Below are positions 1-25,026 of a stretch of 64,000 nucleotides of DNA, piece after piece. The first letter of the stretch is position 1, and each line of letters starts with the position of its first letter. The DNA is from Polytrichum commune (Eukaryota; Streptophyta; Polytrichopsida; Polytrichales; Polytrichaceae). Under the pieces are notes generated by a model. That model was not told where the DNA came from. It worked only from the letters and a program-made list of their open reading frames with translations, and made no database searches. The position numbers and the translations under genes are program-made. The DNA is taken from contig OX485805.1 in the NCBI GenBank assembly GCA_950295325.1, positions 54,460,758 to 54,524,757 of the forward strand. The letters are read 5' to 3'.

Positions 1-72
1 TATGTCATCGACAATTTTCATGCCTCTGACTACATATAATTAAATCAACATGGAGTATGTCTAATGCTCTAC

Positions 73-325
73 TTACGAACGCACGTTCGTAAACCATTCA
101 CATCACACGAACTTAGGTGCCCCTGTATCTCGAAGGAAATATATACGAACGCACGTTCGTATATCATTGACAACTTTCATGCCTCTGACTACATATACGT
201 AAATCAGCGTGGAGTATGTCTAATGCTCGGTTTACGAACGCACGTTCGTAAACCACTCACATCACGTGTCTGAGCCTATTGTGCATATGCTACCAACTCA
301 TCTTTACGAACGTGCGTTCATAAAG
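73..325. repeat. Four dispersed ACGAACG-NN-CGTTCGT palindromes
   Basis: Palindromes lie at about 73-92, 141-164, 229-254 and 302-325, with central dinucleotides CA, CA, CA and TG. The core is seven bases, a two-base centre, and the seven complementary bases. Outside the core the flanks also pair and differ between copies: ATAT/ATAT at 141-164, GGTTT/AAACC at 229-254, and CTTTA/TAAAG at 302-325, the last with one core mismatch. The first and third sit in duplicated context, because the phrase ending in gtctaatgctc recurs. No gene is recognised here. Confidence 0.85.
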
Positions 326-330
326 GTCCG

Positions 331-1284
331 GTATTTGCGGCGGTATATACGGGTATGTGCAGACTATTGTGTACCTAGGAGGTATAGGGTGGGCGCATAA
401 GAAAATGGTTTGAGCTCGTTCCAGTCAGGTCTGTGGAGCGCACACTTGGATGTGCCGCAAAAAAGAGCTCTGATGTGGGGGGAAGAGCTTTAAGTACCTT
501 CCCCCTGATGGTTCAAAATCCCTTGGATGCTATTTAAAAGAGGATTCCCGCCGCCTACTTTGACCTAACAATATGCCATTCCATCCATGTGGATATATAT
601 AAATAGCATTATGTATGGAGCATGTCTTGCATGCACGCAACATATTGTAAATATGTCAATCGGTCGCACACCTTAGTTGTTACCAAGGTCTCACGAGAAT
701 ATATGTCTATATTTATATGTCTATATAAATTATAAATTATATTATATTATATATACATATATATATAATATTAGATACATAATGCCTATATAGGTTGATG
801 GTTAACATTGAGTTTTAAATGATTTGCGACTAAGGTATGAAGTCCAAGTTAATTAACGATTGATTATACCTAATAAAGTGATGAAGGGTTTAGGGTAATA
901 CATATTCACACACACAATGAGGTAAGAGTGGCTAAGAACATGTTGTGGAAGCCCCTAAAATTGTAGGTATTATATGATTCACATTAAAAAAATGCCCGTA
1001 ATATGGTCATCAAGTGCATGAATACCAATAAAAAGTCGCTTAATCCATTATGGCTTGTATTAGGTAGATTGATGACATTTTGAACCAATCTTACCCAGTA
1101 TATGTAGATAAGGTCTTCATTCAAATGTAACACTAGGTTTGAAAATAATGAATTAAAATGGTATGATTGGAAATGATCAATCACTTTGGAACGGTGCATA
1201 CGATAATGATAAGAATTGAAACCATACCTACGTGAAGTCACACTTACAATTATTAATATGTGTTTGACATCCTATGGGAAATAA
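331..1284. other. AT-rich non-coding stretch
   Basis: No convincing coding region or RNA gene is seen. An ATAT-rich run lies at about 715-780. The only open frames are short and compositionally random. Confidence 0.5.
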
Positions 1285-1480
1285 ATTTTCCTCCACCTCT
1301 TGTAAAGGTTTAGGATAGCCCTCGCCACAATTTGAAATTGAGTCCTTTATCCGATAAATATTTATTTAAGGAACCATTGAACACCTTGAAAGATATATTG
1401 TCCATGAAAATTTTATATTTTAAAACACCATATACACATCCTTGCGGGTGGATTCTTCATTTGAATCCACCCCCTACACT
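1285..1480 (+). repeat. Diverged repeat, copy 1
   Basis: This stretch aligns with 2280-2480 over about 200 bases. Shared landmarks are the cacaatttgaaat/cacaatttaaaat segment, the aggaaccattgaaca segment, and the ggtggattcttcat motif near the end. The same end motif occurs at about 37430 and, reverse-complemented, near 38045 just past the gypsy integrase remnant, so these may be old retroelement ends. That link is inference. Confidence 0.5.
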
Positions 1481-2068
1481 CGAGGCTCGCCAAACATCGG
1501 ACCATATTATGAACTAATATAAGTTTAAATGCAATTGATCATTGGTGAAATTAAAAGTTGATGGCACTAGTATTCGTTTGTTAGTTCAAGTCGAAAACTA
1601 ATTAAATGACTTCACCTCCTATTGGAAATTCATTTATCCTCCACTATGGTGTGGAAATGGATAACTAATTTGGAATGGTGCATACATTAGTATGCACTTA
1701 CAATTATCTGTTTATATTATTTGCATCCTACAAGAAGTATGTGCATGACCATAGCTTAAACTGTTGATTTAAACCAAAGTCTTAAATCATTCATGTTATA
1801 ATAAGATTAAGTATGCATAGTGTGATCAAATTGCACTCAAAACTATATACTAAGGTGAAAGGGCTAGCATTCTAAATTTCCCTCTTCACCTATTAAGCCA
1901 ATGTTTTATCTCAAAATACAATTATTCGCATGAGTCTAGATTATTATAGTTGCTATGAACCACATAAAGCGATTTCCAATCGAACCAACATTGGTTTACC
2001 ACTTTGACATGATGCCCATAGACCACAACATGGCCTTATATAAGAAAGGTTGGTAAGATAAAAAGATG

Positions 2069-2131
2069 TAGGGTTTAGGGGTTAGGGTTTAGGGGTTAGG
2101 GTTTAGGGTTTGGGGTTAGCGTATAGGGTTT
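2069..2131 (+). repeat. Interstitial plant-type telomeric repeats
   Basis: Degenerate TTTAGGG units with a few GTTAGGG and TTTGGGG variants run for about 60 bases. This is the plant telomere motif at an internal position. Smaller patches occur near 18800 and its mirror near 23180. Confidence 0.8.
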
Positions 2132-2279
2132 GTGAAAGTTGTCTAGGTGGTTTGTGGGCTTAGGATTTATATCGTTAGTGATACTTAGTGTACTATGCGT
2201 TTGTATTTAGAGTATCTAACACTAAATATCATATTAAGGGTGGGTCAAGCTAACACCTCATGAAATTAATGACAACGTA

Positions 2280-2500
2280 TTGAAAATTGAATTTTCCCCC
2301 ACTTCTAGAGGAGAATCAGATAGCCCCTCTCCACAATTTAAAATGCATCCTTTATGTATGTCATATTTGTTTGAGGAACCATTGAACAACTTTAAGGATG
2401 TGTGGTTCATGAAAACTCTATCTTGCAAAACACCATATATACATTGGGGTGGATTCTTCATCGAAAACCTACTAAATGACATGCATTGTGTTGTACAAAT
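2280..2500 (+). repeat. Diverged repeat, copy 2
   Basis: Partner of 1285-1480. It keeps a 75-codon open frame in one direction and a 74-codon frame in the other. Both look incidental to the repeat rather than genuine genes. Confidence 0.5.
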
Positions 2501-2631
2501 TAACTGAACATACTTTTCTAAAATATGTTTACAAGGAATCCAACTGTAGAGGTATTAAGGGGAATGTAAAATTCATGTCCCCGAACTAAGCTCCCACCAT
2601 TTCGTATTTCTTATTTCCTAAACCCTCATGC

Positions 2632-2905
2632 ATCCATCTCCCCATGCTATTCCCTCATCCCCCCCATGTCCCTCCCCATCCCCATCCCCCACCCCCACCC
2701 CCATCATCCCCATCCTCATCCCCATCCCCTCCCCCTCCCCCTCCCCATCCCCTCCCCCTCCCCCTCCCCATCCCCTCCCCATCCCCTCCATCCCCTCCCC
2801 CTCCCCCTCCCCATCCCCTCCCCCTCCCCCTCCCCATCCCCTCCCCATCCCCTCCCCCTCCCCCTCCCCATCCCCTCCCCCTCCCCATCCCCTCCCCCCT
2901 CCCAG
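2632..2905. repeat. C-rich CCCCTCCCC/CCCCATCC simple repeat
   Basis: About 270 bases of almost pure C with T and A in short units. The minus strand is a run of GGGG blocks separated by A, GA or AT, the pattern expected of DNA able to form G-quadruplexes. All six frames stay open and would give Pro/Ser/His-rich or Gly-rich products; I treat these as shadows of the repeat. Confidence 0.85.
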
Positions 2906-3085
2906 CCCTGGCCAGTGGCCATCAGCCACGTGGCCGCCGCCAGGAAACCCTAGCGGTGCCGGGTACCTCCCCGCGCCTCTTCCTTTCCTCCTCATTTGTC
3001 ATTTGGACCAGAGGAGGAGGGGAGAGCTTAGGTGTGGCGAAGCCCTTGCCGTTTGTGGCGCCACATATTATATGTTTTCTTTGAC
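2906..3085. other. GC-rich segment, possible promoter or 5' exon
   Basis: A non-repetitive GC-rich stretch follows the C-rich repeat and ends in a T-rich tract near 3075. It could be a promoter or an untranslated leader of the plus-strand gene at 4536, whose ATG is directly preceded by a splice-acceptor-like ttgcag. This is inference from composition and position only. Confidence 0.25.
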
Positions 3086-3094
3086 TCGCATTGT

Positions 3095-3300
3095 CAGAAG
3101 CTTGAGATTAGGATCGCTTGAGAGGGTGAGAGTTTTAGAAAGCTTGAGAGGTTGAGAGTTTTAGAAGTCTTGAGAGGTTGAGAGGTTTAGAAAGCTTGAG
3201 AGGTTGAGAGTTTTAGAAATCTTGAGAGGTTTACAATTTTAGAAAGCTTGAGAGGTTGAGTGTTTCAAAAAACTTGAGAGTTCCAGAAAACTTGAGTTTT
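3095..3300. repeat. 26-bp tandem minisatellite (gcttgagaggttgagag)
   Basis: About seven imperfect units of roughly 26 bases share the core cttgagaggttgagagtttt. Units decay towards 3300, where spacing becomes irregular. Confidence 0.8.
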
Positions 3301-3813
3301 AAGGGCTTGTGAGTTGTGTGTACATCAGAATATTTGTAGGATTTGTATATAAGTTCTGAAGGCTTGAGAGTGTGAGAAAGGAGCGAGGGTAGAAGATTGC
3401 ATTTGAAAGTGAAGTCAGTGCATTTGTGAGGTTTCTGGTTTCTGAGTAGCAGGCAGCAGGTTTTGTGTATGCAACAATTCAATGTGAGTACAACTTTCCT
3501 TTTCAAAACACTTCTTTGCAATCTGAAATTCTTCTTTGTTGAATTACATGTGTTTTGTTTTATGCATTATGAGCTTTGGCATGTTTTGAATGAATTAGGA
3601 CTTTCCTCTTCATTATGAATTCCCAATCACTGAATCTAAAATTTTGTTGTGATTCCATATTGCACTTTGTGTTTCATCATTCTGATCAAGAGTTGCAGGC
3701 AGAAATCCAACCTATGTTGATCGCAACTTTCATAAACCCATACATACATATTCGTATACATACGTATACATTCATGTACGGACAAAGCATTTATTATCAT
3801 ACCCACACATGAC
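3301..3813. other. Non-coding stretch upstream of the palindrome array
   Basis: Nothing recognisable apart from a catacata-type simple run near 3735-3775. Confidence 0.4.
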
Positions 3814-3900
3814 CACATTTACGAACGATCGTTCGTAAATGTGCCGTGTATACATCTAATACACCAACCCCTCTACTTTTACGAACGTGCGTTCGTAAAA
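3814..3900. repeat. Two extended ACGAACG palindromes
   Basis: At 3814-3843 lies a perfect 30-base palindrome with arm CACATTTACGAACG and centre AT. At 3877-3900 lies a perfect 24-base copy with arm TTTTACGAACG and centre TG. These are the longest error-free members of the family in the window. Confidence 0.9.
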
Positions 3901-3920
3901 TACGCACTCACCCTATACAT

Positions 3921-4369
3921 TTGCGAACGTGCGTTCGTAATTGACCAAATAAGGAACATCATGTAATTGCGAACGTCCGTTCGTAAGTACACAGTAATCA
4001 CACATCAATATCCAAAATTTACGAACGGTCGTTCGTAAACAGGGATGAAAACAAACCCCGGATTTACGAACGCGCGTTCGTAATTGACCAAATAAGGAAC
4101 ATCATGTAATTGCGAACGTCCGTTCGTAAGTACACAGTAATCACAAATAAATATCCAAAATTTACGAACGGTCGTTCGTAAACAGGGTTTAAAACAAATC
4201 CAGGATTTACGAACGCGCGTTCGTAATTGACCAAATAAGGAACATCATGTAATTGCGAACGCCCGTTCGTAAGTACACAGTAATCACAAATCAATATCCA
4301 AAATTTACGAACGGTCGTTCGTAAACAGGGATGAAAACAAACCCAGGATTTACGAACGCGCGTTCGTAA
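3921..4369. repeat. 143-bp tandem array with three palindromes per unit
   Basis: Three units begin at 3941, 4084 and 4227 with ttgaccaaataaggaac, an exact spacing of 143. Each unit contains three members of the ACGAACG palindrome family. Their centres run in a fixed order: TC (CC in the third unit), GT and CG. An extra palindrome with centre TG sits at 3921-3940. The array ends about 170 bases before the ATG at 4536, which places it in the probable 5' control region of that gene. Open frames across the array on the minus strand are by-products of the repeat. Confidence 0.9.
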
Positions 4370-4484
4370 ATCCACAAAGAGGCATGGACATAAATATGTA
4401 CATCCAATAACTAATAGAAAAATTATTCTCATAAACGATCCCCGTACCTTTTGATTGCACCATATGAACATCAAAGCAACCAGA

Positions 4485-4506
4485 AATACGAACGCGTGTT
4501 CGTAAA
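4485..4506. repeat. Palindrome copy next to the gene start
   Basis: ATACGAACG-CG-TGTTCGTAA with one core mismatch, about 30 bases before the ATG. Between them lies tatattgcag immediately before the ATG at 4536, which reads like a 3' splice site. A 5'-untranslated intron ending here is possible. Confidence 0.7.
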
Positions 4507-4535
4507 TGCCATTCTGAAAGTGTCATATATTGCAG

Positions 4536-5833
4536 ATGGCTAGACCAGGCAGGAGCGCAATAGAGATGTTCGCAGTACAGTTGGATCGCCTTCCGGAGTC
4601 AGTGACAGATGACAATGGCAACGACAACTACATCCCCAAAGATGACTTCATCGGGGAGTGGACGGCGCTCCCCGAGAAAAGTGATCACGGGATGTTCGTC
4701 CTTAGGTTCACATACGAGTTGGAGACAAGGCCAGACCAGCGTGAGCAGTGGGTGCAGATGAAGACCTGGGGGATAGAGTCTATAGAGGCACAGGGTGATT
4801 TTGTCATTTTGGAAATGAAAAACAAAAAAGACAACATCAACCTCCTGCTGGACTTCAGGAGGCACCCTTTCTCCCATACATACGCACAGAATAATATTGT
4901 AGAGGATGCAAAGCATTTTGACCTGATTAACCTCTTCACAAAGTACAGCCTCAGCCAGCATTGGACTGCCAGGAAGCTCTCACTGCACTGGCCCTGAACA
5001 TTTCCAAGTATAACAGTGTCGTCGCCGAGGCTAACAAGAAGAAAAAGAGTCCAAAAAAACCTACTGCATATGGAGCAGGAGGTTCCAGAAGTGCGCCGCG
5101 GCCAGTGCCAACAGGTAGCAGATTGACAGAAGGGCCAAGCAGACACTCCACGCCATCTAAAAGAACTAGGGATGACATGGAGAAGTCAGGTGTAACGGAG
5201 ACCGCGGAGGTCAACTCGCCGCCTGTCATGCCGACTCCTTTGAAAAAGGGAGAAAACCCTGATGCTGCAAAGGCGACTCGTATCCTTCGAGACTTCAACA
5301 ATTACTCGAAGGATTGCTGGCCCATGGGACGGCACTTCACCTTCAACGTGGACTGCTTCAGATGCGAGAAATCCCCGAACAAGTGGGTGGTGAGGTCACG
5401 TGAAAGCGGGGGTGTGAAGTGGCAAATAAATAACTTGATGAAGAATGTGAAGTGGGATAGGCAAACAGTGTGTGTTATGCCAAAAGGTTTCACTTCCCGT
5501 CCCACGGAAAATGATTGGGCACGAATCCAGAACGGGGAGTTCTGGATTATTGATGGACAGCACAGCTTGGAGGCCTCGCAGATCATTCTAAAGGACGATA
5601 ACTTCCAGCATGAGCTTAAGGGGGACCTGCGCTACTGGAAAGCGTTCCTGGTCTGGTCTGACGACTGGGACAAGCTCCGGAAAATTTCGACATTTCTGAA
5701 TTCCGGAAATAAAATCAAGGCGTTTGAAGCGTCGTGGGCAGCGAACATAGTGGCTGCGAGAGACGTGTGGGTTGCACATGGGTGCCCACCAAAGGAGAGG
5801 GAGAATGCGAAAAACCAGTCTCCACAATGGAAG
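4536..5833 (+). CDS. DGQH/ParB-like domain gene, first exon
   Basis: First recognisable exon of an unfamiliar gene. I start it at the ATG at 4536; no earlier in-frame ATG follows the upstream acceptor-like site. The first about 140 codons, to near 4954, form a domain I do not recognise. The frame then shifts to one that runs open to 5833. Either one base is missing near 4958, or a 56-base GT-AG intron (4899-4954) joins the frames in phase. After a Lys/Pro/Ser-rich linker, the second part contains FWIIDGQHSLEAS (DGQH codons from 5552) and then TFLNSGNKI. That arrangement resembles DGQHR-type proteins of the ParB/sulfiredoxin-like fold, better known from prokaryotes. Their usual Arg after DGQH is Ser here. 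The exon ends at AAG/GTAAGT. Function is unknown; a DNA-binding or nucleotide-binding role is only suggested by the fold. Confidence 0.6.
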
Positions 5834-5952
5834 GTAAGTTTACGAACGAGCGTTCGTAATTCTCAGGTTCCTTTTCAACATTCTTGATCATTTTATTTAC
5901 GAACGTGCGTTCGTATTTGGTTGCCCGCTGACATTATTTTCTTCTAATGCAG
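5834..5952 (+). other. Intron carrying two ACGAACG palindromes
   Basis: A 119-base intron with donor GTAAGT and acceptor TTCTAATGCAG. It joins exons in phase 0. Palindromes with centres AG (5839-5859) and TG (5896-5917) occupy a third of its length; the first begins right after the donor site. Confidence 0.75.
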
Positions 5953-7277
5953 GCGTTTTGCGATGCGATGGTAGATAAATTCTCTTCCATCGACATGAAG
6001 TCCACGTCAACGAAGTCCGTGCTGGAGCTGAAGGGTGAGCTCCGGCTCATTTGTTGCAACATAGACACCTGGGATTTGTGGACCCAGTTTTTTGATGCTC
6101 ACAGTGCGGGGGATCTCGTCAACCCCGACACTGAAGAAAAATATAACAAGGAGAAGAGTGGGGAAGCCCCTCCGCTGCTGAGGGAATTTTTCAGGCCGCT
6201 TCAGGGGTTGACGGAGTCCGAATTGCAGAGATGTGCAGTGCATGCTCTTGGGAACACCGTCGGTAGAACAATCCCCTACCCGAAGATTTTTTTGAAGAGG
6301 CCAAAGCACATGCCCGGAACGTACTCCATCAAGGAGTGGTGCGAGCATCGCAAATTGAAGACTAACGCGATGAGGGAGTTGGGCGCACTCGTCCCAGAGT
6401 ACAAACTCTTTCAGGCCGACGGAGACATCAACTGGGCTGGATGGAAAGAGTTCAAGGTCGGTTACAACATCAACGGCTCTTCCATGCGTAGTCTAGTTAA
6501 GGAACACGCCTCCGTTTTGAAACTCAAGGGGAACAAGCGGACCAAGAAAACAGAGACAGATCCCCAGGAGGTGGAGTTGTATATGAAGTTTTTGGAGAGG
6601 AAGCGGAGGGCCACATTCGAGGGAGTGGCCAGATTTTGTTTGGTAACCACCGGGCTGGAGAGGACCACATTTTCTAAGTGGGACGGCACCATCAGCAAGG
6701 CCGAGGTGAGGGAGGACCGCAGGGGTTGTCCATTTGCCCTGATTGATTTAAGGGGGATCCCAGGAGGTGCGAGGCAAGGGGGAAAGGATTTGCCCTTCTA
6801 TAACCCTTTCATGGCAAAGTTTCAAGACTACAAATCGCCTACCATGAGGGAGCCTCACGTATGGCTTTGGATAGTGGAACAAGAGAAACTATCCATTGTG
6901 ACGGAGCTGTACGACAATACCATCAAGTTTGAATACAGCATCTACCACAGCACCTACGTGCCCGCAAAAACAGAAGGGATCGTGGCCATCAACGAGGCCA
7001 GGGGCAACAAGCAGGTGGGAGCTATCAGCCTGATCTTCTTGACATACAATGCACTCAGGCATGGGAGAGCGCCTGTGAAGGCAAACAATACTTTCAAGAA
7101 GATATACAACATTCCTCACCCCCTCCCAAGGAACTGCTGCAGGAGACACTGTACACTATTTTCCCCGCATTGGAGCTCAGGTTGGAGTTCTACGTGTCAG
7201 TGTTGCAGAGCTTGGCAATCAGTGGAGAGACTGTCTACAACATCTTTGGAGGCAGCAAGTTTATGTACGCGGCCATG
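5953..7277 (+). CDS. DGQH-domain gene, second exon block
   Basis: Continues in phase from the GCAG acceptor at 5952. It encodes about 440 residues rich in Trp, Lys and Arg, with no family I can name. The frame must change between 7015 and 7131 to reach the well-formed end at YNIFGGSKFMYAAM before the GTAAGC donor at 7278. A phase-0 intron from CAG/GTGGGA at 7015 to the pyrimidine-rich CTCCCAAG at 7130 (116 bases) would do this exactly; a one-base indel in the C-run near 7120 is the alternative. The possible intron is itself open and coding-like, so I cannot decide. GC-rich codon use matches the other exons of the block. Probable nuclear-encoded hypothetical protein. Confidence 0.55.
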
Positions 7278-7417
7278 GTAAGCACTCCTTCGATTTACGA
7301 ACGCTCGTTCGTAATGTTTATTGAGCTAGATGTTAATAGTTGCCAATGTCTTTCTGTGGGTTGATGTTCATGCTTTTGTTTACGAACGCGCGTTCGTATA
7401 TGCTGACATGATTGCAA
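7278..7417 (+). other. Intron with two palindromes and an altered acceptor
   Basis: The donor is GTAAGC. Palindromes with centres CT (7293-7315) and CG (7378-7400) lie inside. The only phase-consistent acceptor point is 7417/7418, where the sequence reads ATTGCAA instead of ATTGCAG. Other AG dinucleotides upstream lead into a stop or the wrong frame, and the next AG at 7451-7452 is out of phase. This looks like a lost splice acceptor. Confidence 0.55.
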
Positions 7418-8905
7418 TCGTTGCTACAAATGCTGGGGTTGTGCGTGAATAGCTACATCGACGCCCAGGACGAGGAGGAATACCAAGTCCACAGGGTGAA
7501 GGCTTTCACAATGGACCTGCACGACATGGGTGTCCCTAGGGAGGATTTCAGCATGCCCGTCGACGAAGGCATGCCGGGCATGGAGACAGACGATGACGAG
7601 CCCGCCCCTTCCGTAGACGTAGACGTGGACGCCATCCTGCAGTCCTTCAACATCACTCCTTTACGGATTTTGGCGCCAACGGGTCATCCTTCTGACCCCC
7701 AAGGGACACCGGGGGGCTATACAGGTTCGTCGGCTGGGACCACCCAGGATGTCCTCCCCGCTAGAGTGTCGGGTGCGGAACCCTTCGGCACGCCTGGAGG
7801 CTGCTCGACTTCAGTATCTCCAAGGCCCGTCGTCGTTCCGAGGATGGAGACCCTCGACCTCCTCGACCAACGCTCGCGTCCATCCTTGGACCTCTTCCGG
7901 AACACGAGGAGGAGAATGAAGAAGACTCCGTACGTGGAGTTGCCTGAAGGAGCAATCATCGAGGTGTCCGACGAGGACGAGGGCGACATGGACATCATGG
8001 CGGAGCTAGGGGTCGATTACGACAAAAACAAGCGGGTGAAGGAGGAGGTGCTGACTGTTGCCGAGCTGAATGCCAAGCTAGAGCAGAAAATGAAGGAGGA
8101 AATGGCGGCTGCGGCAGAGGAGAGTGCAAGAAATATGGCCCGCATGCAGGAGGCGCTGCGGGAGTCCGCAGCAAAGACAGACGCCATATTTGAGATGCTC
8201 AGAAATATGCAGAGCTTCTCGGCGCCAGCACAACAGCCTTACCCCTTCCCCGGAGGATACCCCTCCCATTCCCCCCCTCCAGGCCTGTTCCCTGGAGGAC
8301 CTTCGCACCCACCAGCACCACACCCAACGCCAGCTGGGAGTCCTCCGCCCCCTCAAATGACTGCCACCCCCGCCAACTCCCACGATGCGATAAGGGCTGC
8401 CATACGCGAGGACGAAGATTTACGAACGCGCGTTCGTGAATCTTCAGGTCCGGCAGTCCTAACCCCTCCCCCTCCAAGGGTAGGACTGGCCTCAGTCACT
8501 GCCACCGCCTCTTTGACAGTCGTCCCGAGGGTAGTGCATAGGCAGGGCGATGAATCTGCGCAACACACTGACATGGTCATTGTGGAGGAAACGCAGGGGA
8601 GCCCCAATGACGCGGCAGCTGTCCAGGGAATGGACGTTGAGAGCCCTGACCTGGAACGGCATCCATCCGCGGAGATGGAGGATGTCCGCATGGACACTCT
8701 CGACCTGGGCGGAGACGACGACGACGACGCGGACCACATTGTGCAGACCCAGGCGTCACAGTCGGAGCGTGCCACAGACGCCATGGAGACAGAGGCGGCT
8801 GGCCAAATGGGGATTACGAACGCGCGTTCGTTAATCGAAGAGGAGGGAACTGCTCGGTCCAGCACCGCTGCCCCTCCCCCCGATGACGAAGTAACTCTCC
8901 TCTGA
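7418..8905 (+). CDS. DGQH-domain gene, last exon, Pro-rich and acidic tail
   Basis: Encodes about 495 residues. Order: a short helical start, an Asp/Glu-rich segment (7585-7640), a Ser/Pro/Gly linker, a basic RRRMKK patch near 7908, and an acidic EVSDEDEGD stretch. A likely coiled coil rich in Lys, Glu and Ala follows (about 8020-8210), then a Pro/Gly-rich stretch (8220-8370), and finally an acidic tail with five Asp in a row near 8715. It ends at TGA 8903-8905. Two ACGAACG palindromes lie inside the reading frame and are translated as DLRTRVRES and GITNARSL. The composition suggests a long disordered nuclear protein tail. With the damaged acceptor and one or two frame changes upstream, this copy may be a recent pseudogene. 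Confidence 0.55.
   Translation, partial: SLLQMLGLCVNSYIDAQDEEEYQVHRVKAFTMDLHDMGVPREDFSMPVDEGMPGMETDDDEPAPSVDVDVDAILQSFNITPLRILAPTGHPSDPQGTPGGYTGSSAGTTQDVLPARVSGAEPFGTPGGCSTSVSPRPVVVPRMETLDLLDQRSRPSLDLFRNTRRRMKKTPYVELPEGAIIEVSDEDEGDMDIMAELGVDYDKNKRVKEEVLTVAELNAKLEQKMKEEMAAAAEESARNMARMQEALRESAAKTDAIFEMLRNMQSFSAPAQQPYPFPGGYPSHSPPPGLFPGGPSHPPAPHPTPAGSPPPPQMTATPANSHDAIRAAIREDEDLRTRVRESSGPAVLTPPPPRVGLASVTATASLTVVPRVVHRQGDESAQHTDMVIVEETQGSPNDAAAVQGMDVESPDLERHPSAEMEDVRMDTLDLGGDDDDDADHIVQTQASQSERATDAMETEAAGQMGITNARSLIEEEGTARSSTAAPPPDDEVTLL
8414..8445. repeat. Palindrome inside coding exon (centre CG)
   Basis: A 32-base palindrome with 15-base arms and one mismatched pair. Left arm GAAGATTTACGAACG; the reverse complement of the right arm is GAAGATTCACGAACG. 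It is in frame within the last exon. Its outer pairing (GAAGATT with AATCTTC) is not shared with other copies. Confidence 0.85.
8812..8836. repeat. Second palindrome inside coding exon
   Basis: GATTACGAACG-CG-CGTTCGTTAATC with a one-base bulge in the right arm. It is translated through without a stop. Confidence 0.8.
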
Positions 8906-9452
8906 GAATACCACTCATTTGACAAACGCGCGTTCGTAACCATTAACCCATGCGCGTTGTGTTCTTGGCGGTTCCTCTCCATCAGCATCACGAGGCGTGC
9001 GAGGACCCTTCTCTACGTGGACCCTTAGCCCGATAAATTTTGTAGAACACGGCATGAATTTGCCATAGGAAATTGTGAAAATTTATCACGTGAGACAAAT
9101 TGTAAATATTCACGGAATTAATATATCAGCAGATGATCTCTGCGTCGCATCTCCCAAACTTATTGTATCGTATCGCATCTTGTATTATGTATGTTCATGC
9201 GCATCATTACACTTTCGCGCCCACTTTCACCCTCCTTCACGAACGAGCGTTCGTACATGTGCTTCTATCCGCGCTCACGAATGAGCGTTCGTAAATGATG
9301 CGCCACCCCAGCCTTCATTCACGAACGCTCGTTCGCAAGTCTGCACTTGACCACATTCTCCTTGCACTATTTTCCTCGCATAATCGTCTTTTCCTTACTG
9401 CAATGTTCTTTATTGGATCATAGAATTAAACTAGTCGAGTTGTTAATCACAG
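8906..9452. other. Intergenic stretch with four palindromes
   Basis: Copies lie near 8921-8940 (left arm decayed), 9237-9256 (centre AG), 9275-9295 (AG, one mismatch) and 9319-9338 (CT). They sit between the DGQH gene and the phosphatase-like gene, so they could mark the promoter of the latter. The stretch ends in taatcacAG at 9452, the likely splice acceptor of the next exon. Confidence 0.7.
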
Positions 9453-10220
9453 GATCCCCCGGAGATAGGTCGGAAACCCTCGACCAGTGGACGTCTTACC
9501 CGAAACAAACCGTTCGTCGTGTTCGACCTGAACGGGGTGTTGTGTCACACCGAACACATCCCCCGGGTCCCCACGCGTCCCTTCTGTCACCCCGACGAAA
9601 GGGACTACGACAGAGAGCTCGACACGCTCATTAACCGCAAGGCTGTCCGCGCCCGTCCCGGCCTGCGTGACTTCCTTCGAGAGGTGCTCGATGTAGCTCA
9701 CGTCTTTGTGTGGAGCTCCATGGTCATGGAGAACACCAAGCCAATTGTCGACTTCCTCTTCCGCGATCTTCCGAGCCCTTGCCTCATCCTCGGCCAAGAG
9801 GATTGCGATGAATTGCTTGACAAAAAGGGTATGCCGGTTTCAAAGTTCGGCGGTCGTGGCGGAGGACAACAATTCCTGAAGGTCCTGAGGTCAAGACTGT
9901 GGCGGGGCATCCCCCGGCTGCAGGGGGTACCCCACGGGTGGTGGCCGACCCCTGAGAACACCATCCTCGTCGACGACAGCCCCACCAAAAGCGTCTTGAA
10001 CCCCCTGGGGAACGTCATCTTCCCCGCCACTTGGACCGGCGATAGAAACGACACGTTTTTGGTCGATACGCTAGCGCCTTACCTTAGAAGGCTTGTTGTC
10101 CACGCCGGTAGCATACCATTTTTTGTTAGGTCCAACCCCATAGGCAATGTGGGTTTAAGCCCCCGTGATAATGTATTCAAGAGCATCATGAGGCTCGCCA
10201 AACTCAATAAATTGATTTGA
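9453..10220 (+). CDS. FCP1/NIF-type HAD phosphatase-like protein
   Basis: Exon model starts after the AG at 9452 and is open for 255 codons to TGA at 10218-10220; earlier exons are not identified. HAD signatures in order: KPFVVFDLNGVL (residues about 19-30), HVFVWSSM (about 83-90) and NTILVDDSPTK (about 168-178). This is the arrangement of FCP1/SCP-like phosphatases that act on phosphoserine, for example in the RNA polymerase II C-terminal domain. The nucleophile Asp is present, but the second Asp of the usual DxD is Asn (DLNG). Plant-specific members with DxNG exist, so loss of activity cannot be assumed. GC-rich codon use matches the DGQH gene just upstream on the same strand. The last about 35 codons look non-conserved, and splicing into the exon at 10347 is possible. 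Confidence 0.7.
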   Translation, partial: DPPEIGRKPSTSGRLTRNKPFVVFDLNGVLCHTEHIPRVPTRPFCHPDERDYDRELDTLINRKAVRARPGLRDFLREVLDVAHVFVWSSMVMENTKPIVDFLFRDLPSPCLILGQEDCDELLDKKGMPVSKFGGRGGGQQFLKVLRSRLWRGIPRLQGVPHGWWPTPENTILVDDSPTKSVLNPLGNVIFPATWTGDRNDTFLVDTLAPYLRRLVVHAGSIPFFVRSNPIGNVGLSPRDNVFKSIMRLAKLNKLI

Positions 10221-10283
10221 AATGCCTCCATGTCTTTGCTTGTATCATGTGGTTCACATTTACTAATGCTTGCTTCGTTTTTG

Positions 10284-10337
10284 GATGTCTTTTGTTGTTG
10301 TGATTGTTGTTGTTGTGATTGTTGTTGTTGTTGTTCT
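10284..10337. repeat. TTG-rich microsatellite / pyrimidine tract
   Basis: A tgttgttgtgattgttgttg run directly before cttgcccatag at 10336-10346. It could serve as the pyrimidine tract of a 3' splice site for the exon starting at 10347. Confidence 0.6.
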
Positions 10338-10346
10338 TGCCCATAG

Positions 10347-11308
10347 TCTGCCCCCATATGCGACGCCCCTGTGGTCGACAACCCTTCCCGTCCCCTCTCG
10401 CCCCCTGCCTCCCCTTCCCGCGACGTCACGGACTTCCAAATGCCATCCCTCTACCAGTTCTCGGCGGTCGACGCGGCCTCGGCCGTGGATTACTCCCGCG
10501 ACGTCGGCATCGACGACGGCGTCGTCAACAACCCGCCCCCCGCACTTGGCGCCCGCGCCTACGCCCCGTCGCCCTCCCCCCTCTCCAAGGAGAAACGGAC
10601 GCTCGTTCGTTTGGGGCACCTCTCGCCCTCTAGGGACAAAGGCGTCGCTCGTCGCGGGCCGAGCCGGCGTCTCCGCATGGACTCCGCCCCCGCCGACCCC
10701 GTTCCTCCCCCCGCAACGTCCACCGCGATCGTGGGCCCTCCACGCCTCGACTCCCCCCCGCCATCCAACAGTGCAATAGTTCCATCGGCTCCGGATGCTC
10801 CCGTCGACGTTCCCCTCGTTCCCCGCATGGACGTCCCCAAAGCCAAGGTGCCCTCCTCAACCCTAAACCCCTTTCCCGCTTTTGCTTCCCTTGTCTTCCG
10901 TTTGCGTGCCGTTCTCTTTACGAGCGCCCATCCCAAACCGCCCTCATTATTTTCCCCACTCCATTCCTATTCTTATCTTCCTATGACGTTGTTTCGCAGG
11001 TGGCTACCCGCTCGCTTGGTGCCCGGCCCTCCTCCACGTCCTCCTTGGATAGGCACGCCCTCAAGGCCGCATCTTCCGAGTCCGATCGTTGTCTGGCCCT
11101 CCGGAGAAGCGCAAGACGTTCCCTTTCGCAAACGCCCTCGCATTCTACTTATAATACCACCTCGTACAATTCGGGAGCGCGTCCTGAAACATGCAAGAAC
11201 GACACATATTCCTGTCCAGGCAACATACAAGGATACAGTCGTGGGCCTGAGATTTTTAGAGCCATGAAGGCCGCCAAAAAAAAGGACTTAGCCGCAAAAA
11301 AAAAATAG
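10347..11308 (+). CDS. Pro/Ser-rich exons downstream of the phosphatase-like gene
   Basis: Two exons fit together in phase 0: 10347-10847, ending AAG/GTGCCC, and 11000-11308, starting after GTTTCGCAG. The 152-base intron between them is pyrimidine-rich. The product is Pro/Ser/Arg-rich with no known fold and ends in Lys/Ala repeats (MKAAKKKDLAAKKK) before TAG. It may be a disordered C-terminal region of the phosphatase-like gene or a separate gene. A diverged palindrome, AAACGGACG-CT-CGTTCGTTT at about 10592-10613, lies in the first exon and encodes KRTLVRL. Function unknown. Confidence 0.5.
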
Positions 11309-11589
11309 TGGGTCGGACCAGCGTACTAGTGGGACGGACTCCCTAAATGGGCTTAGGTGTAGAACATATTTAAGTGCTTACTTTCTATGCTATTCCAAGT
11401 TACTCAAGACATTGATGGTATTTCCATTATAATTGTATTTCAATCCCAATTAATTCATTCAACTTCCATTCATTCTTCGCATCTTCCCTTCCATTCATAA
11501 CGAGTTGTCATTTCATACGCAACTATTTTCATGTATGCCTCACATTTTTGTTCACTTCCATGCCTTTATGTATAATAATAGTAGCATAC
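11309..11589. other. AT-rich intergenic stretch
   Basis: No gene seen. Probably the 3' flank of the exon ending at 11308. Confidence 0.4.
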
Positions 11590-11697
11590 CATTATACATA
11601 TGGGATTTTTAGTCGTCATTACTGGTCCAATTTTGAAATGTGCATCCTTATATAGTCTCATAATCAACAAAAAGTCTCCAAATACCGAATATAGTGT
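11590..11697 (+). repeat. Diverged repeat ending exactly at the palindrome border
   Basis: This stretch is similar to 21745-21855 in the right arm (and reverse-complemented near 20135-20245). Shared pieces include acgggatttttt/atgggattttt, ctggtccaaatttg/ctggtccaattttg and cgaatatagt. Its similarity stops where the inverted arm starts at 11698. Confidence 0.6.
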
Positions 11698-11812
11698 TCA
11701 GTCATCAAACGTTCTCTGTTGTCCAACTTATGGGGGATCCTTGATGTTCTGAAACATTGGACATTCTCTATGTGCGAGTGGACTATTACCAAGTTTTCCA
11801 CATAAGGTAGAC

Positions 11813-12010
11813 GTGCCTAATTCGGTTACTCATCCTCATTGGACACCTATATTTAGTGGTATGTGGTTAGGTGAGGCTCTAAGAATGGATATCAAAAAGA
11901 CACATGCTTCAAAAGAAATTAGACTATGTGTTCAAAATATGATATTCTTTTTAAGTTCAATATTCAACATAATTGGAGATGCATATGACCATTTAATAAG
12001 GAGCATGTAA
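11813..12010 (+). other. Repeat-encoded peptide fragment, left copy
   Basis: A 65-codon frame with the phrase FSGMWLGEALRMDIKK followed by a hydrophobic stretch and IGDAYDHL. A diverged relative is encoded by 22254-22549 and its mirror (FSGVISSVTDLRTDIKT followed by IIEGAYTYNH). Two diverged copies within one arm suggest a fragment of an old mobile-element protein. Family not identified. Confidence 0.3.
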
Positions 12011-12783
12011 TAATTTTCACTTTGAATATTATATTCAGATGAGCTTCAAAAATTATGTGGAAAGTGGCTATGTCCTTGATTTGGATTTGCAAATCATCTT
12101 GTAGTAGTTGCATGTTTCATATCATAAGAGATGTGGGGTGGTTTGAAATAGTAACCATTTAAGACCTATTTAACTTACCTTATGGGGAATAATATACTAC
12201 AAAATACTAACTTACATGAGTAGCCCTTTGCAGTTAAAGCACTGGTCCATTTGTGATTTGCCCACTTAAAATATGTCAACCACATGACATGCAATCGATA
12301 AAGCAATAGATGCATGCAATTGACACTAAATTTGGACTAAATTGTGAATAAAATATACATACTGTAGTCTTTTCAAAGAGTCAGAGAATCTTGGAACTAA
12401 CTTGCAGCTACTAACACAGTCAATGCGAGGGGGGAGACATTCAATGCAAGGGGAGACAAGTCCTAAAAAGAAGAAGATATGTAAAGTAAAAGATTGAGGG
12501 GAAGATGAAGTTCGACGGTAGGCGGGAGAGCGGAAATTAAAAAATCGGGGGGAAAGATGAAGGACAGTAGGCGGGAGAGCAAAAATTGCGAGAATAGTGC
12601 TTGACCTACTAGAGGACTCCAGGTGTCTACTTGGTATTTGAGTCTCCCACATGAAACAATGTCTGGAACTGGAGTCATCGATCCTACGTGGAAATGCACA
12701 CAAGCTTATGCCCAACTCGCCATAACGAGGACATCCAGGCGTCCGGGTCTTCCTTTCTGGGATACCCATAGCAGACCATCACC

Positions 12784-13371
12784 CCGGGTACGCAACTCCC
12801 GTATTATATGGTCCTGATTAGAATCACTTATAATGCGTTTTAGTCCAATATTGGGTGATACAATTTGTTTTAATGTAGGAAACCCTTGTAGCCCTTCTAA
12901 CAAGGAATCCAAAAATGTAATTATATATAGGAAATGAATATATTTTGAAGCATATAATTGCATTAAAAACCTAATTATATGATTTTTTTAATACGTGTAC
13001 CATAGGTCAAACTACCCAACTTTTTGGACTTTTTAATAAAATTTTAACATTGTGAATGAATTATAATTTTAATGGGAGGCAACTATTCGTGGCTTATAAT
13101 TTTAATGGGAGGCTTAATAAATATGCAACCCAACTTTTTTTTCATCTCATTTATTTAATTTGGTCTTCACCCAACTTTTTGTTCATCTCATTTTATTTAA
13201 TTTGGTCTTTACCCAACTTTTTTTTCATCTCATTTTATTTAATTTGGTCTTCACCCAACTTTTTGATCATTTTAATTTGATATAATTTGATATAATTTTT
13301 ACAAAAAGCCGTCCTCTAAGCCGTTTTAAGTACGATGCCCCCTGCGTATAATATGGGAGTTGCGTACCCGG
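12784..13371 (+). mobile_element. Mutator-like non-autonomous element, short form, left arm
   Basis: 588 bases bounded by inverted ends CCGGGTACGCAACTCCC and its complement. The next bases also pair (TATTATA). It is flanked by the exact 10-base direct repeat gaccatcacc at 12774-12783 and 13372-13381. A 9-11-base target duplication points to the Mutator superfamily. The 3' third carries about three 40-base tandem units (acccaactttttttcatctc...). No transposase is encoded. Confidence 0.85.
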
Positions 13372-15385
13372 GACCATCACCCATCTCTAAATTACCAACA
13401 CATAACAATTGCTAGAAGGGCTTCTAAACTAGATACTGTTCTGGTAAATGCCACTGTGCCCAACCCCACATTAACAAAAGACGCTCACTGGTGGACTTCA
13501 TAAATTTCACAATCTCCTTCAAAACCACCTTGGGGCAGAGATCTATTTCGCCCTGACGAGGCCCGTGACTCGTGCTTCCTCAAATCTGAAAGGCACATCT
13601 AACTGCTCTTGCGGTTGCAAAGTCAGTGGAATGATGTGGAAGGTGAGGCTTCTAATCCAAAGCTAATTCCGCTTGCTCCAGTTTCGTTGGGACAGGGGAT
13701 GAGTCTCTGCCAATGAATCAGCAGATTTGGGTGGATGCAAAGGCGTCCGCGATCATGTTGTGACAGCAAGGAGCAGAGGAGATTGATGGAGCAAGCGGAG
13801 GCAAGCTCCGAACAGCGGGACTGTCACGGGACCGAGCTTCAAGTGAGAACGGGGTCCATTCTGGGCTGGAAAAGCATCTCAGTGTGATTAGGGTAATGAG
13901 GGGCTCAGACCCCGGTTTAGGACCGGCACTGGTAATCGGCATCGACCGGCGACGGCGGCAAATCAATGTACCGCCACATCATACCTTTATATCAAGACCT
14001 CATATCGAACCTTTACCTCATATCAATCTAAGAATAACTTAGGGGGCAATGAGTAAGGAATTGAGGGATGCATGAAGGGATTACTTAAGCCATATCTTTG
14101 TGAGATGCCCTAAGGAATTTGAGAGATATTATTCTTCCTTGAGGTTAGATTTTGAACATGAGAAAGGGAATTTGAGGTGGATGAACTAAGGATTTAATTC
14201 AAGGCCGTAAACATAACCAAATAGGCACCCGAGAGATCTAATTTAGCAAGGGTATATGCTTGCGTAAATTGGATAGCGTGACTCGGATTTGAGATAATTG
14301 AATGGACATTCGAACCATGAAATAATGGGGAGTGATCCTAGAAGTTATTAGACTTACGGGAATGATAAAATATTCTAAGAGAGTAAATGAGGAACATTCT
14401 ATGAATTAGGTTGTTTTGACTTAGCGAGGGAGTATGCTTGCCTTATAGAGAAGTTGGGCAAGATGCTTGAAGACTTGAAAGGAACGAGAGATATGTTATA
14501 AGAACTTGAATGAATAAATAGGATTGTGAATGTTTTCAACCATGAAAGATATTGTATAAGAGCAATTTCCCTCGTAACACTTAACCGTGACATTACACTT
14601 TTTTGGAAACATTAACTAAGTTCTAAAGGCACTTACACATTAAGAATCCATTAGAAAGCTATTAAGAGATATTGAGAATGCATTTACGTGTTTCTGGTTA
14701 AGGACGCTTTCGGGGAACATAAACTTGTGATCTTAGGGCAACTACTCCTAGAGAAATTATAAAGACATTGAAACTATATGTTACGGGATTGAGACACAGA
14801 AGAATACAAACACCTTCACGAGACTTAGAGAGGAGATCTAATTTTGGTGGGAGTAACTTCCATGTAAACCGGTTCAGCAGCGGGTTACACCGTCTGAGGC
14901 TGGAAGGTTGAAGGTGGCCCTCCACAGTGGAGTAACATCAGGAGGTGCCCATATTTTTACCACCTTTGGGTTAGCAATTCGAGGAGCTCCTTCTTTGAAA
15001 CCCTCATCTGCTCCCTTGCCATGGGTCGCAAAATGCATCAAAGCTTGGTTGCCTGCATTTTGCAACCTGCACATTTTGATGTCCAAGAATGTTTTCAATG
15101 ATGTCAGCTTCCATCTCAGTATCTGGAAGACGATCTCTTTCATCACGGGAATAAGCAGGGTCTCCAACCACTGAACCTGCTCCCGAGGTTTCCATTAGTG
15201 GGTGGTTTTGATCACATTGTTTGGGAGTGCGCAAGGATACAAAGAACAGTGTGGTGTTCAATCAAGAATTTCTTGGTGTTGGGTTTACATGTATCTGACT
15301 CCAAAGCATTTTTTTTTAATCGACCAAAACATATGCAAAGGCTGAGATGATTGCGAATGGGATGTAATTGGGATTCAAGATTGAT

Positions 15386-15748
15386 GCTACACTAAGTATG
15401 ATATTTAGTGTGATATGGTATTTAATGTCACTATGGTAACTTTTTGGATGACACTTCTTATGAATAAGTGAACAAACATTGTCATGGATGATGGATGAGT
15501 TCATCCATTGGCCAAAATGCTACCTTCTCTTGTCAGCAACTTGTGATGAATTATTGTCATGGATGATTGAAATTTGGATGAAAATTCATGTGGTAAGTGA
15601 CAGAAATTGCAACACTGTAAATCTATAATCCCCTCCAAAAAATTACAAGGAATGACAAATAATGTTGGTTGACATTGACTGTTTGGTGACTCTATACCAT
15701 GGTTTACAATTAGTGTTGAGCAAGACAATTAGAATTGGTGACACTAAA
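15386..15748 (-). repeat. About 360-bp dispersed repeat, left arm copy
   Basis: Aligned with 44861-45221 outside the palindrome at roughly 85-90 percent by eye. The repeat runs from tttagtgtcaccaattct to acttagtgtagc on the opposite strand. Both ends contain (T)TTAGTGT, a hint of short inverted ends. No coding capacity. Confidence 0.75.
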
Positions 15749-16527
15749 AAGCATACTTAATGTAGTACCTTGTTGGCACATATGACCAATTTGTGATGGT
15801 CCGCCATGGAATCCAAGACGTACTGGATGGGTGAAAAGAATGCCTCATAGAGCTCCTCCAAGATTTCGAAGAAGTTCTTTTTAATTCAAAATGTGGTTCA
15901 ATGCTTCACAAGAGAATTACGACATCAATGCAACACATTACAATTTTCAAAATGCATGAGTTGTATATTTCTAAGAAAGACTTGTGATTGTCATGCATAT
16001 GCCATCAAGCAACATAGTACTTGGGGTAAAATGAAACTCAAGTACCCACATAAGCAATTCATGGTCACTATTGATTGCACTTAAGTGTGGTATCTTGGGC
16101 ATTACCATGTGTATCATGTTTCAAGGTGACATACAACCAAATACGTGCACGACATAGAGGTAACACGGACAACAATTTCTTTATTATCACAGTTTGAGTA
16201 TGGAGGTGCTCATGAGAGTGGACTATAGAAACATCTCAATGATCCTCTTACATTAGGAAGCGAGTTGTCTCAATGACAATCTCTCTATGTCACTACCACC
16301 ATGAACATCACAAAACCTCTGAAACTATGCTTCCCTTTCAATGTAACTTCAACAACCACATGGCATTGTTGTATTACACCACAAGAGAAGCGGGGACTAC
16401 ATACTGTGCACACAAATATATAGTCGATTCAAACGCCAGAGCACGACGAATGCAAGCACCGACGTCGACATCGGTGGTGACCGGAGAGCATTGTTGGGCG
16501 ATCGCCAAGTCACATGAAATGCCACGT

Positions 16528-16962
16528 TCATTCGATGGTGATGGTGGCGTAGAGGGTGTTGCCGTCCTCCTTGTAATAGTCAACTGTGAGTTTCATACCC
16601 GTGGTGGTGGTTCTCTCCAGATGCGACAACTGCTTCCACAACATTTGGTTATTGCCGTGTTTGTCGTTGTAGTAAGTGGGGTGAATCTCAACACCGGTGT
16701 TGGAAGCTTGCTTGTCCGGGACGATATCACACCACCTATTGTAGTTGTGGATGCCCAGTGCGACCAAGAAGAAGCCGTCTGAGGGCCCCTTGAAGCGCAA
16801 CATTCCGGAGGTGCCACTAGCGCCCATGTGGAGGATGTGGTCGCCATCCACCTCGCTCCAGTATACTCCAGTATTGCCGTCATGCCAGCATGTCTTCTCC
16901 ACAATGCTAAACCAATTGGTGGGCTTGGTTTGGATGACCCTCACGTGGATGGTGTAAGACAT
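16528..16962 (-). CDS. Fungal-type (ABL family) lectin, left arm copy
   Basis: Identical mirror copy of the gene at 25027-25461, transcribed towards the outer end of the left arm. It has the same ATG context, TATA box (17100-17106) and 144-residue product. The two copies are divergent, with their 5' ends facing the palindrome centre about 4 kb away. If the palindrome is real, the gene dose is doubled; if it is an artefact, only one copy exists. Confidence 0.85.
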   Translation of the reverse strand: MSYTIHVRVIQTKPTNWFSIVEKTCWHDGNTGVYWSEVDGDHILHMGASGTSGMLRFKGPSDGFFLVALGIHNYNRWCDIVPDKQASNTGVEIHPTYYNDKHGNNQMLWKQLSHLERTTTTGMKLTVDYYKEDGNTLYATITIE

Positions 16963-17099
16963 GGTGACGAACTGAAATGGAAACTTTGTGGAAAGTGAAT
17001 GAAGAGCAATGGATCGAAGGAGTATGTACTGCTGTGGGACTGAAGATGAGGAGCGAAGCTTGAAGCAGGAAGGAGTGAATGCTGTGATGAAGGGGCCGC

Positions 17100-17106
17100 A
17101 TATATA
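17100..17106 (-). promoter_or_regulatory. TATA box of the left lectin copy
   Basis: Minus strand TATATAT, mirror of 24883-24889. Confidence 0.6.
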
Positions 17107-18220
17107 GCCTGTGGGAAGGGAGGCAAGCATCAAACTGGTTGTGGATGAAGGGAGTTTTCAATTATTAAAAACACTGCTGAGTACATGGGTTGGCTTTGTC
17201 AGAACCTCTTATTATTATTTATTGGACTATGACAAATGCACACATGCTTTCCTTATGGGATTGGAACTACAGTATTTGCATGGACAGAAGTGATGTGAAC
17301 TGAGGTACATGTAGACGACTTTTAGTTTTCAATTTTGCAAACTGGACTCCGAGTGTCCTGGCCTGGCGACATGGTACCTATGCATGATGTTTATCTAGCT
17401 GAGTCAACAACTGCAACCAGTTAATCGCGTTTCTTGACGTAGAATAGTTTGCTTCAATAAGGATTACTCGGGTGATCGGTCCAGTTAGGTTGAATAAGAG
17501 GAGTATTACAGTGCACCCTCGATATGTGTTACCTCAATGACTGTTAAAATGGCCATGTGTTAAGGGAAATTGTGCTCCCCCGAAAAACCTAAAACATACA
17601 GTAGTAAGTGTTAGTTGTTGATTGTCAAGTGAATCTTTGAAAATCATGCTCCCCTATTCAACAAATTCACCTCGATAATTGTCAATATGGATGACAAAGA
17701 TGACACTTGCAATTAATGCATGATGTTTAACACATTCAAATCGTGACCGTAGCCACTTTTCCTCATGATCTTCTTAGTTCAATGTATGAATATCTTAAGG
17801 AAGATACATGAAAAACAATGAAAATAAGTTGATTAGGTTAGAATGAATGGCTTGAGGTTTTATGCTGAGAGATGGAAAAGAGGAAATGATGAGGAATGCA
17901 AGTTTTTTGATAATTTTATTCCTTTTAAATTATTAATAGTTACATTTTCTCAAAGAGACAAGTAAGTTCAAACCTCCCATTTGTACACTAGAGTCTCCCT
18001 AATTTGAGCATTAAAGTATCATACTCTGCACACGAATACACACGAAATGGTTAAATGAATGGCACCCAAAAGTGATCACAAGTGGTGTGAAACAACACCT
18101 ATCTGGCCAATCATTGCATCCTACCCATCATTGCATCTTTTTTGGGCCCACACAACAATCATTCTAACCCTAGTCAAGTGCACCAGATGTAGTGGTCGTT
18201 TACCGTCTTAGGTTTTCCTC

Positions 18221-19418: not shown

Positions 19419-19734
19419 GGTTTTTCTACCTTATTTGTGATCAAAGTGTTGACTCTTGAACTCACAAAATGATTGTATGTATATGCTCCCTCAATTATGT
19501 TGGCTAATAAATTTAGAATGGTCCAACAAAGTTTACATACATAGTCCAATCTCCTCTCAACATATGTCGTTTTGATGTCTGTTCTTAGATCTGTGACACT
19601 TGATATCACACCACTAAAATATAGGTGTGTGAGACTGTGAGTGAACAAAATTAACTTAATATGGCATGCATGCCTTACACTCACTGAGGCACTCCAATGA
19701 CCCCAAGGCGGGCCAGAGACTGGCAAGCAAAACA

Positions 19735-24882: not shown

Positions 24883-24889
24883 TATATAT
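24883..24889 (+). promoter_or_regulatory. TATA box of the right lectin copy
   Basis: TATATAT in the context ggcTATATATgcgg, about 140 bases before the ATG at 25027. This would give an untranslated leader of roughly 110 bases. Confidence 0.6.
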
Positions 24890-25026
24890 GCGGCCCCTTC
24901 ATCACAGCATTCACTCCTTCCTGCTTCAAGCTTCGCTCCTCATCTTCAGTCCCACAGCAGTACATACTCCTTCGATCCATTGCTCTTCATTCACTTTCCA
25001 CAAAGTTTCCATTTCAGTTCGTCACC

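Follow-up and report, generated by a model that had tools for sequence, protein, structure and literature searches.

Why should one palindrome crowd around a single gene and be missing from the rest of its neighbourhood? The locus that raises this question lies in a 64-kb stretch of the moss Polytrichum commune (C3:54460758-54524757, the window), where an earlier note, made from the letters alone, had counted about 28 copies of a parS-like palindrome, ACGAACG-NN-CGTTCGT, around a gene for a protein with a DGQH motif, and had proposed that this protein or a relative binds them. The count stands: at up to two mismatches the whole window holds 28 copies, all of them at 75-10610 (shuffled windows: mean 0.01, maximum 1), and positions 11699-64000 contain no exact copy of this motif or of the five others described below. 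We find that the window holds part of one copy of a multi-copy DNA transposon, F1. Our preferred reading, to which we give a probability of about 0.6, is that F1 is one of at least six families, each of which combines a DGQHR-like protein with a private palindromic operator that would mark the element, most likely for anti-silencing or activation.

The mobile nature of F1 follows from its shared ends, its target duplications, its copy number and a DUF7869 frame. We read six copies with their flanks, the window's own (W) and copies A-E (A without its right end), and they agree from the left end AACACTATATTCGTTAATCGG to a right end finishing CCGAATATAGTGTT, over a length of 15 to 17 kb. The element has terminal inverted repeats (TIRs) and produces target duplications of 4 bp, which flank six of the eight two-ended copies read (TAGT at C, AAAG at D, TCCT at E, CATA and CTTA at the non-autonomous copies L012 and L013, and CAAT at an element of family F2), W and B being without. 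The alignment of the six copies, the boundary print and a TIR search place W at C3:54455826-54472455 (window -4931 to 11698, 16.6 kb), with its transposase and left end outside the window; the palindromes lie where the earlier note had put them, and the span it had drawn is only part of the element. In the genome searched (408 Mb, 64 contigs) there are 831 left and 414 right F1 ends at up to two mismatches, at least 131 scored matches to the exon with IDGQH among 996 candidates, and at least 148 to the phosphatase frame among 1258 candidates. Left ends are twice as many as right ones, and some of them may be paired with other right ends. A minus-strand frame at the left end matches DUF7869 (E 4.1e-40, the sole Pfam match of this frame) and is taken to be the transposase. 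F1 is therefore a multi-copy DNA transposon that codes for this putative transposase, the DGQH protein and an SCP-like phosphatase. The gene with IDGQH and the FLNSGNK stretch, which the earlier note had seen, is real and has palindromes in both of its introns, and the adjoining phosphatase-like gene carries a NIF domain. In W the DGQH gene is broken: relative to copy B, one frame shift lies in its first long exon and a second towards the end of the exon that follows; many other DGQH-exon matches across the genome have no stop inside the match.

The exact F1 palindrome occurs 5602 times in the genome, against 4 for the reversed control. Nine further exact sites begin left of the window (L001), one of them straddling its edge. 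Among the 100 listed of the 5602 sites, all on contig C1, the palindromes are clustered at 640-646 kb (33), 2235-2245 kb (17), 2270-2276 kb (23), 2286-2289 kb (4), 2367 kb (3) and 2458-2466 kb (20), and each cluster, matched by eye, has an F1 end, a DGQH match or a phosphatase match no more than about 25 kb away. An even spread over the genome, the outcome that the earlier note had set against its own idea, is not seen among these 100 sites, which co-occur with F1 features instead.

In each of five further families (F2-F6) there is a DGQH relative (22-36% identical) and a palindrome peculiar to the family. F2 (C1, L015-L018), reached through an F1-type left end, is 53-65% identical to F1 in the transposase, 33% in the DGQH protein, 36% in the next exon and 44% in the phosphatase; it has no exact F1 site and holds 50 copies of GGGTCG-NN-CGACCC (full operator GTTTGGGTCG-NN-CGACCCAAAC), which form arrays next to its transposase and DGQH genes, three lying in intron 1 and seven in intron 2. 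F2 adjoins, or is inserted in, a remnant that has a left end of F1 type (L015:501-4771), and itself holds a Gypsy-like long terminal repeat (LTR) element (L016). Two more loci, L028 and L029, combine F2 sites with a DGQH protein 81-83% identical to that of F2, so the motif is common within the family; no F1 site was found in these or in four other loci with F2 sites (L028-L033). Families F3 and F4 were picked by a DUF7869 search alone, regardless of DGQH. F3 (L019, L020) codes for an NGQHT protein and has 12 exact CCCACGGGTG-NN-CACCCGTGGG sites and one more at one mismatch; intron 1 holds one of these, and another falls in a gap within the transposase match. F4 (L021-L024) codes for a VDGQHV protein and has 17 exact GGGTGAGGCA-NN-TGCCTCACCC sites, a count that rises to 68 when one mismatch is allowed, the sites then forming arrays of about 60 bp. 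F5 and F6 come from a scan of bacterial and archaeal genomes with one of the exon alignments, which gave 25 pattern matches and three confirmed short contigs (L025, L026, L027), all filed in one GTDB cyanobacterial bin, AVDCRST_MAG81. Their coding stretches look intron-split and are therefore taken for eukaryotic DNA, which this bin probably holds. The operator common to the two F5 contigs (L025, L026) is TTCAGCTCG-NNN-CGAGCTGAA and that of F6 (L027) is TTATCCTCG-NNN-CGAGGATAA, with sites in introns and upstream of the gene. A viral origin of the protein was also considered and rejected: 79 and 168 pattern matches in viral contigs included none related to either of the two exon alignments used.

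Palindrome and protein are paired by family. Besides the exact F2, F3 and F4 sites given above, we counted 153 exact motifs in F1 (15 of them from a neighbouring cluster beside copy C), 65 in two non-autonomous F1 copies, 7 in F5 and 5 in F6, and when the six exact motifs were set against the six families there were no off-diagonal sites at all, nor any site in the nested LTR element. A search free of any given motif found the family's own palindrome to be the commonest in all eight sequences of F1-F4 (7-50 copies; at most 1 in 30 shuffles of each sequence); in two non-autonomous copies it counted the same sites in a shifted frame. Genome-wide operator counts, which cover F1, F2 and F3, gave 9731 sites for F2 and 953 for F3, with none for either reversed control. 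The comparison supports the self-linked system of protein and site, carried by mobile DNA of a eukaryote, that the earlier note had inferred: the F1 palindrome and the DGQH gene travel together, and five more families each have a different palindrome and a diverged DGQH protein.

In all six families the operator has one geometry, half-sites of about 10 bp around largely free central bases, two in F1-F4 and three in F5-F6. The centre is widely variable in F1 and F2, whereas most F3 sites have AA/TT there and most F4 sites TA or CA. With sites gathered at up to one core mismatch, so that core values are high by construction and outer ones are not, half-site conservation at position 10 from the centre is 0.81 in F1, 0.97 in F2, 0.85 in F3, 0.57 in F4 (0.86 at position 9), 0.95 in F5 and 0.90 in F6; at position 11 it falls to 0.40-0.60, and F5 (10 sites) again reaches 0.85 and 0.80 at positions 12 and 13. 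The likeness to parS holds for the layout only; the operator measures about 10+2+10 bp and not 16 bp. Extension of the palindrome past its core was considered as a sign of hairpins and set aside, as some sites extend and most do not. The placement is also shared: sites precede genes, lie within introns and form tandem arrays, and in each of the five families whose introns were mapped, F1 (all six aligned copies), F2, F3, F5 and F6, intron 1 has them. Constant geometry with changing sequence would be the trace of a homologous dimeric binder whose specificity has drifted.

What kind of protein, then, is encoded beside these sites? Compared by hhalign over 190 residues around the motif (8 rows), the DGQH proteins match 14 bacterial DGQHR proteins (from 24 fetched, 10 near-duplicates being left out) at 92.7% (E 4.2e-7, one comparison), against 0.1% for the reversed profile and 0.4% for an unrelated methyltransferase profile. 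Passages of PMC4619093 give a QR pair, FxxxN and DGQHR as the features of the DGQHR domain. In our rows the pentapeptide reads DGQHS, DGKHS, NGQHT, DGQHV or NGQHS, its final R being S, T or V in all eight, and in place of FxxxN stands an invariant SxxxN (S384, N388), the N after the helix being kept. With R and F replaced and N invariant, the protein is a distant relative of the DGQHR domain rather than a member, and the kinship with bacterial DGQHR proteins that the earlier note had suggested is supported at this distance. Copy E (L011:1563-2858), an otherwise open exon, has DGKH in place of DGQH. No DGQHR, DndB or ParB profile in Pfam and NCBIfam matched any of eight members, nor P0001, and the DGQH exons gave nothing above the curated cut-offs against Pfam, PHROGs, NCBIfam and PDB sequences; two stray matches, to Agd3_CE (E 0.0042, N-terminal part, below cut-off) and to a cytochrome construct (E 0.0011, with one of the exon alignments), were taken for chance. 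The end of the second exon resembles what we take to be methyltransferase motif I, with GSK for GSG. At this place N6_N4_Mtase matches one of seven members (E 0.028), and methyltransferases weakly top the Foldseek rows of the exon's model (E 0.02), with a VIA Z of about 5-6 that is the same for RNase P proteins, NUDT6 and Alba; hhalign against 22 methyltransferases gave 2%. This part, in which the order of motifs is suggestive, is possibly a degenerate N4/N6 DNA methyltransferase. The GAAC/GTTC context of Dnd modification (PMC4507180) lies inside the F1 operator and is absent from F2-F6, and was dropped as a lead.

Both the sites and the gene bear marks of conservation. In intron 1 of the six F1 copies, the palindrome arms (located by motif, any copy being allowed a single mismatch) show no difference over 420 compared cells, and the rest agrees at 61%; for W, B and E only, the figures are 100% and 51%, and in intron 2, delimited in three F1 copies, 100% and 72%. 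The F1 DGQH exons have ratios of nonsynonymous to synonymous divergence (dN/dS) of 0.05-0.08 where dS is computable, dS being mostly above 1, and one F2 pair has 0.17. Contrary to expectation, comparisons of B with A, D or E (L003, L005, L009, L011) give a saturated dS in the DGQH exon, with dS elsewhere in F1 running from 0 to 0.44 between transposases (0.20-0.44 among B, D and E) and from 0.006 to 0.42 between phosphatases; either a mosaic element or a faster-diverging DGQH module could produce this. The non-autonomous copies L012 and L013 have both ends and the target duplications, only fragments of the transposase and phosphatase, and no DGQH match. They hold 33 and 32 operators in 9.5 kb; copy B has 24 in 16 kb, a lower density. 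That these copies keep the sites without the DGQH gene speaks for an advantage in cis, conferred by a protein that acts in trans.

The most likely reading of these patterns is that the DGQH protein binds the palindrome of its own family as a dimer and acts in trans on the copies of that family, those without the gene included. Binding would mark the element to its benefit, most likely by keeping its non-coding DNA open through anti-silencing or activation, by analogy with VANC in the VANDAL elements of Arabidopsis, and families would then be kept apart as their proteins and operators diverge. ParB-like loading at the operators followed by spreading would also explain how sparse intronic sites could serve an action over the whole element. 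It is tempting to go one step further, and tentatively to see in this bacterial-type, DGQHR-like protein of the ParB superfamily a device for self-recognition, which would load at 22-23-bp operators, spread, and coat and shield every copy, even one that has lost the gene, with private operators ensuring that no family helps another; this fuller version may well prove wrong.

Several points weigh against our preferred reading. A ParB or other DNA-binding fold was not confirmed from the models, which were poor (predicted local distance difference test, pLDDT, 52 and 43.5), and Foldseek on the DGQH exon, the one with a mean of 43.5, returned weak, unrelated rows. The DGQH kinship of F4 is thin, consisting of one tblastn match (E 2e-4, at one of two loci) and VDGQHV read by eye in both. 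Moreover, the DGQH protein was the route to the F5 and F6 contigs and its presence there is therefore not independent, and the sample read comprises one F3 copy, two F4 loci, two F5 contigs and one F6 contig. F2 sites also occur in four smaller pieces with no DGQH match (L030-L033), which fits action in trans and is no proof of it. A few sites are coding: 3 of the 28 in the window, 4 of the 30 in copy B and 2 of the 41 in the F2 stretch, each time below the coding share of sequence, a comparison that is indicative only, as the exon limits were set in this analysis and the binomial P treats tandem sites as independent. Finally, the transposase diverges between F1-F4 as well, and could itself be the binder.

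This last point leads to the rival that we take most seriously, although we think it rather unlikely: the DUF7869 transposase, or a host factor, would bind the palindromes as internal enhancers or synapsis sites, and the DGQH protein would do something else. Sites kept in non-autonomous copies are as expected for mobility sites. However, their position is not subterminal (in copy B the first stands 3.9 kb from the left end and the last, with up to one mismatch allowed, 1.1 kb from the right), and they precede each gene and occur in introns. In CACTA-like elements, subterminal repeats lie within a few hundred bp of the ends, and the F1 sites are not confined to such a zone; to our knowledge, arrays dozens strong over many kb are unusual for transposase sites. 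The sites at the 5' sides of the transposase, DGQH and phosphatase genes and in introns would also suit an autoregulator, in which case the DGQH protein would repress or tune its own element from promoter and intron operators, as a form of copy-number control. We consider this improbable, given that long arrays of dozens of sites exceed the need of a simple operator and that non-autonomous copies without the gene retain the sites at higher density.

The remaining explanations appear to us much weaker. A true partition or centromere-like system, with parS and a ParB-like protein serving an extrachromosomal stage, would account for the DGQHR-like domain and for palindromes clustered around its gene, and is nevertheless very unlikely: the Pfam matches of the frames scanned include no ParA-type ATPase family, segregation does not demand intronic sites or differing operators within one genome, and nothing points to an episome, though no search was aimed at one. 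Still more doubtful is a role in RNA, where inverted repeats located in introns could form hairpins for splicing or as a source of small RNAs, since the two-base centre is too short for a loop closed by the full arms, many sites lie in intergenic arrays and some in coding sequence, and the consensus stops at about 10 bp, with further pairing that differs from site to site. That the palindromes are no more than the drift of tandem repeats is hardly credible; F1 arrays do grow and shrink between copies, but isolated intronic sites are conserved above their flanks, and six motifs share one geometry and one placement.

How does this arrangement compare with known systems? According to passages of PMC5735166 and PMC10398659, VANC binds short, often tandem motifs in the non-coding regions of VANDAL elements, removes methylation over whole elements and acts in trans on other copies, and its motifs differ among related families. 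VANDAL elements are of MuDR type, and transposon-encoded TET/JBP enzymes offer another case of transposons recruiting epigenetic tools (passages of PMC12730594). F1-F6 resemble VANDAL/VANC in that a protein of the element is paired with family-specific motifs in its own non-coding DNA. In contrast, VANDAL/VANC has a MuDR-type transposase, a 9-base motif, and binding and demethylation demonstrated for VANC in the same passages, whereas the present group has a DUF7869 transposase, a DGQHR-like protein as the proposed binder, a 22-23-bp palindrome and a 4-bp target duplication. The arrangement resembles VANDAL/VANC at least as much as parABS. With ParB-parS, F1 shares palindromic sites clustered around the gene for a DGQHR-like protein; F1-F6 differ in the missing ParB family match, in the absence of ParA from the frames scanned, in the dozens of sites per element and in the family-specific operators. 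Similarly, the DGQH protein is like DGQHR/DndB proteins (ParB/Srx superfamily) in the profile match around the motif and the invariant N, and unlike them in its eukaryotic transposon context and long second part. Sola2 elements have 4-bp target duplications and short terminal repeats as F1 does (PMC3627910), and the passages on them in this source mention neither a DGQH gene nor operators.

Within the literature searched, DUF7869 returned no paper, and the transposon may already be named in repeat databases. Searches on moss or Polytrichum transposable elements and on anti-silencing in moss gave nothing on such a system by title, nor did one that joined ParB with eukaryotic transposable elements or palindromes, where the listed titles were nearly all prokaryotic and one concerned SMC complexes. 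In the literature surveyed, sequence-specific self-recognition by transposons rests on VANDAL/VANC of Arabidopsis. The families described here would be an unrelated transposon group with a similar logic, a different protein and a palindromic operator, in six operator-protein pairs of which four are in one genome. The co-divergence of a protein and its DNA site thus becomes directly testable by swaps of operators and proteins, and such pairs could supply orthogonal DNA-binding modules. They also raise the question of how a DGQHR-like domain entered eukaryotic transposons.

Features of F1 copy W within the window (positions in the window; TIR, terminal inverted repeat)
Feature	Position	Strand	Evidence
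In-window part of the F1 DNA transposon	1..11698	.	6-copy alignment, boundary print, TIR search
4 palindromes, end of the left array, which continues left of the window	75..321	.	motif search
13 palindromes ahead of the DGQH gene, some of them inside a 143-bp tandem repeat	3821..4503	.	motif and repeat search
DGQH gene, whole; IDGQH and FLNSGNK stretch at 4931-5833	about 4536-8902	+	
First long exon of the DGQH gene, ending in the DGQHR-like domain; disrupted frame	4536..5833	+	
Intron 1 palindrome	5842..5857	.	
Intron 1 palindrome	5899..5914	.	
Following exon of the DGQH gene, with a part that may be like a degenerate methyltransferase; disrupted frame	5953..7278	+	
Intron 2 palindrome	7297..7312	.	
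Intron 2 palindrome	7382..7397	.	
DGQH gene, last exon, low-complexity, charged; contains sites 8422 and 8816	7430..8902	+	
Palindrome past the DGQH gene	8922..8937	.	
3 palindromes upstream of the phosphatase gene	9239..9336	.	
SCP/NIF-type phosphatase gene	9447..10217	+	PF03031 E 1.1e-15
Proline-rich open frame without a Pfam family; contains site 10595	10347..11264	+	
Right TIR, inward AACACTATATTCGG...	11669..11698 (C3:54472426-54472455)	-	TIR search

Some minor observations can be added. The SCP/NIF-type phosphatase is present in both F1 and F2 (L018:6938-7786); its target might be RNA polymerase II or something else in the host. An inverted repeat with two 9128-bp arms, 100% identical and 338 bp apart, occupies 11698-30291 of the window and starts at the right end of W, a copy without a target duplication. 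A transposon-induced rearrangement or an error of assembly could account for it. Inside the transposon, at 2069-2132 of the window, there is a short repeat of TTTAGGG-like units, presumably of the plant telomere type.

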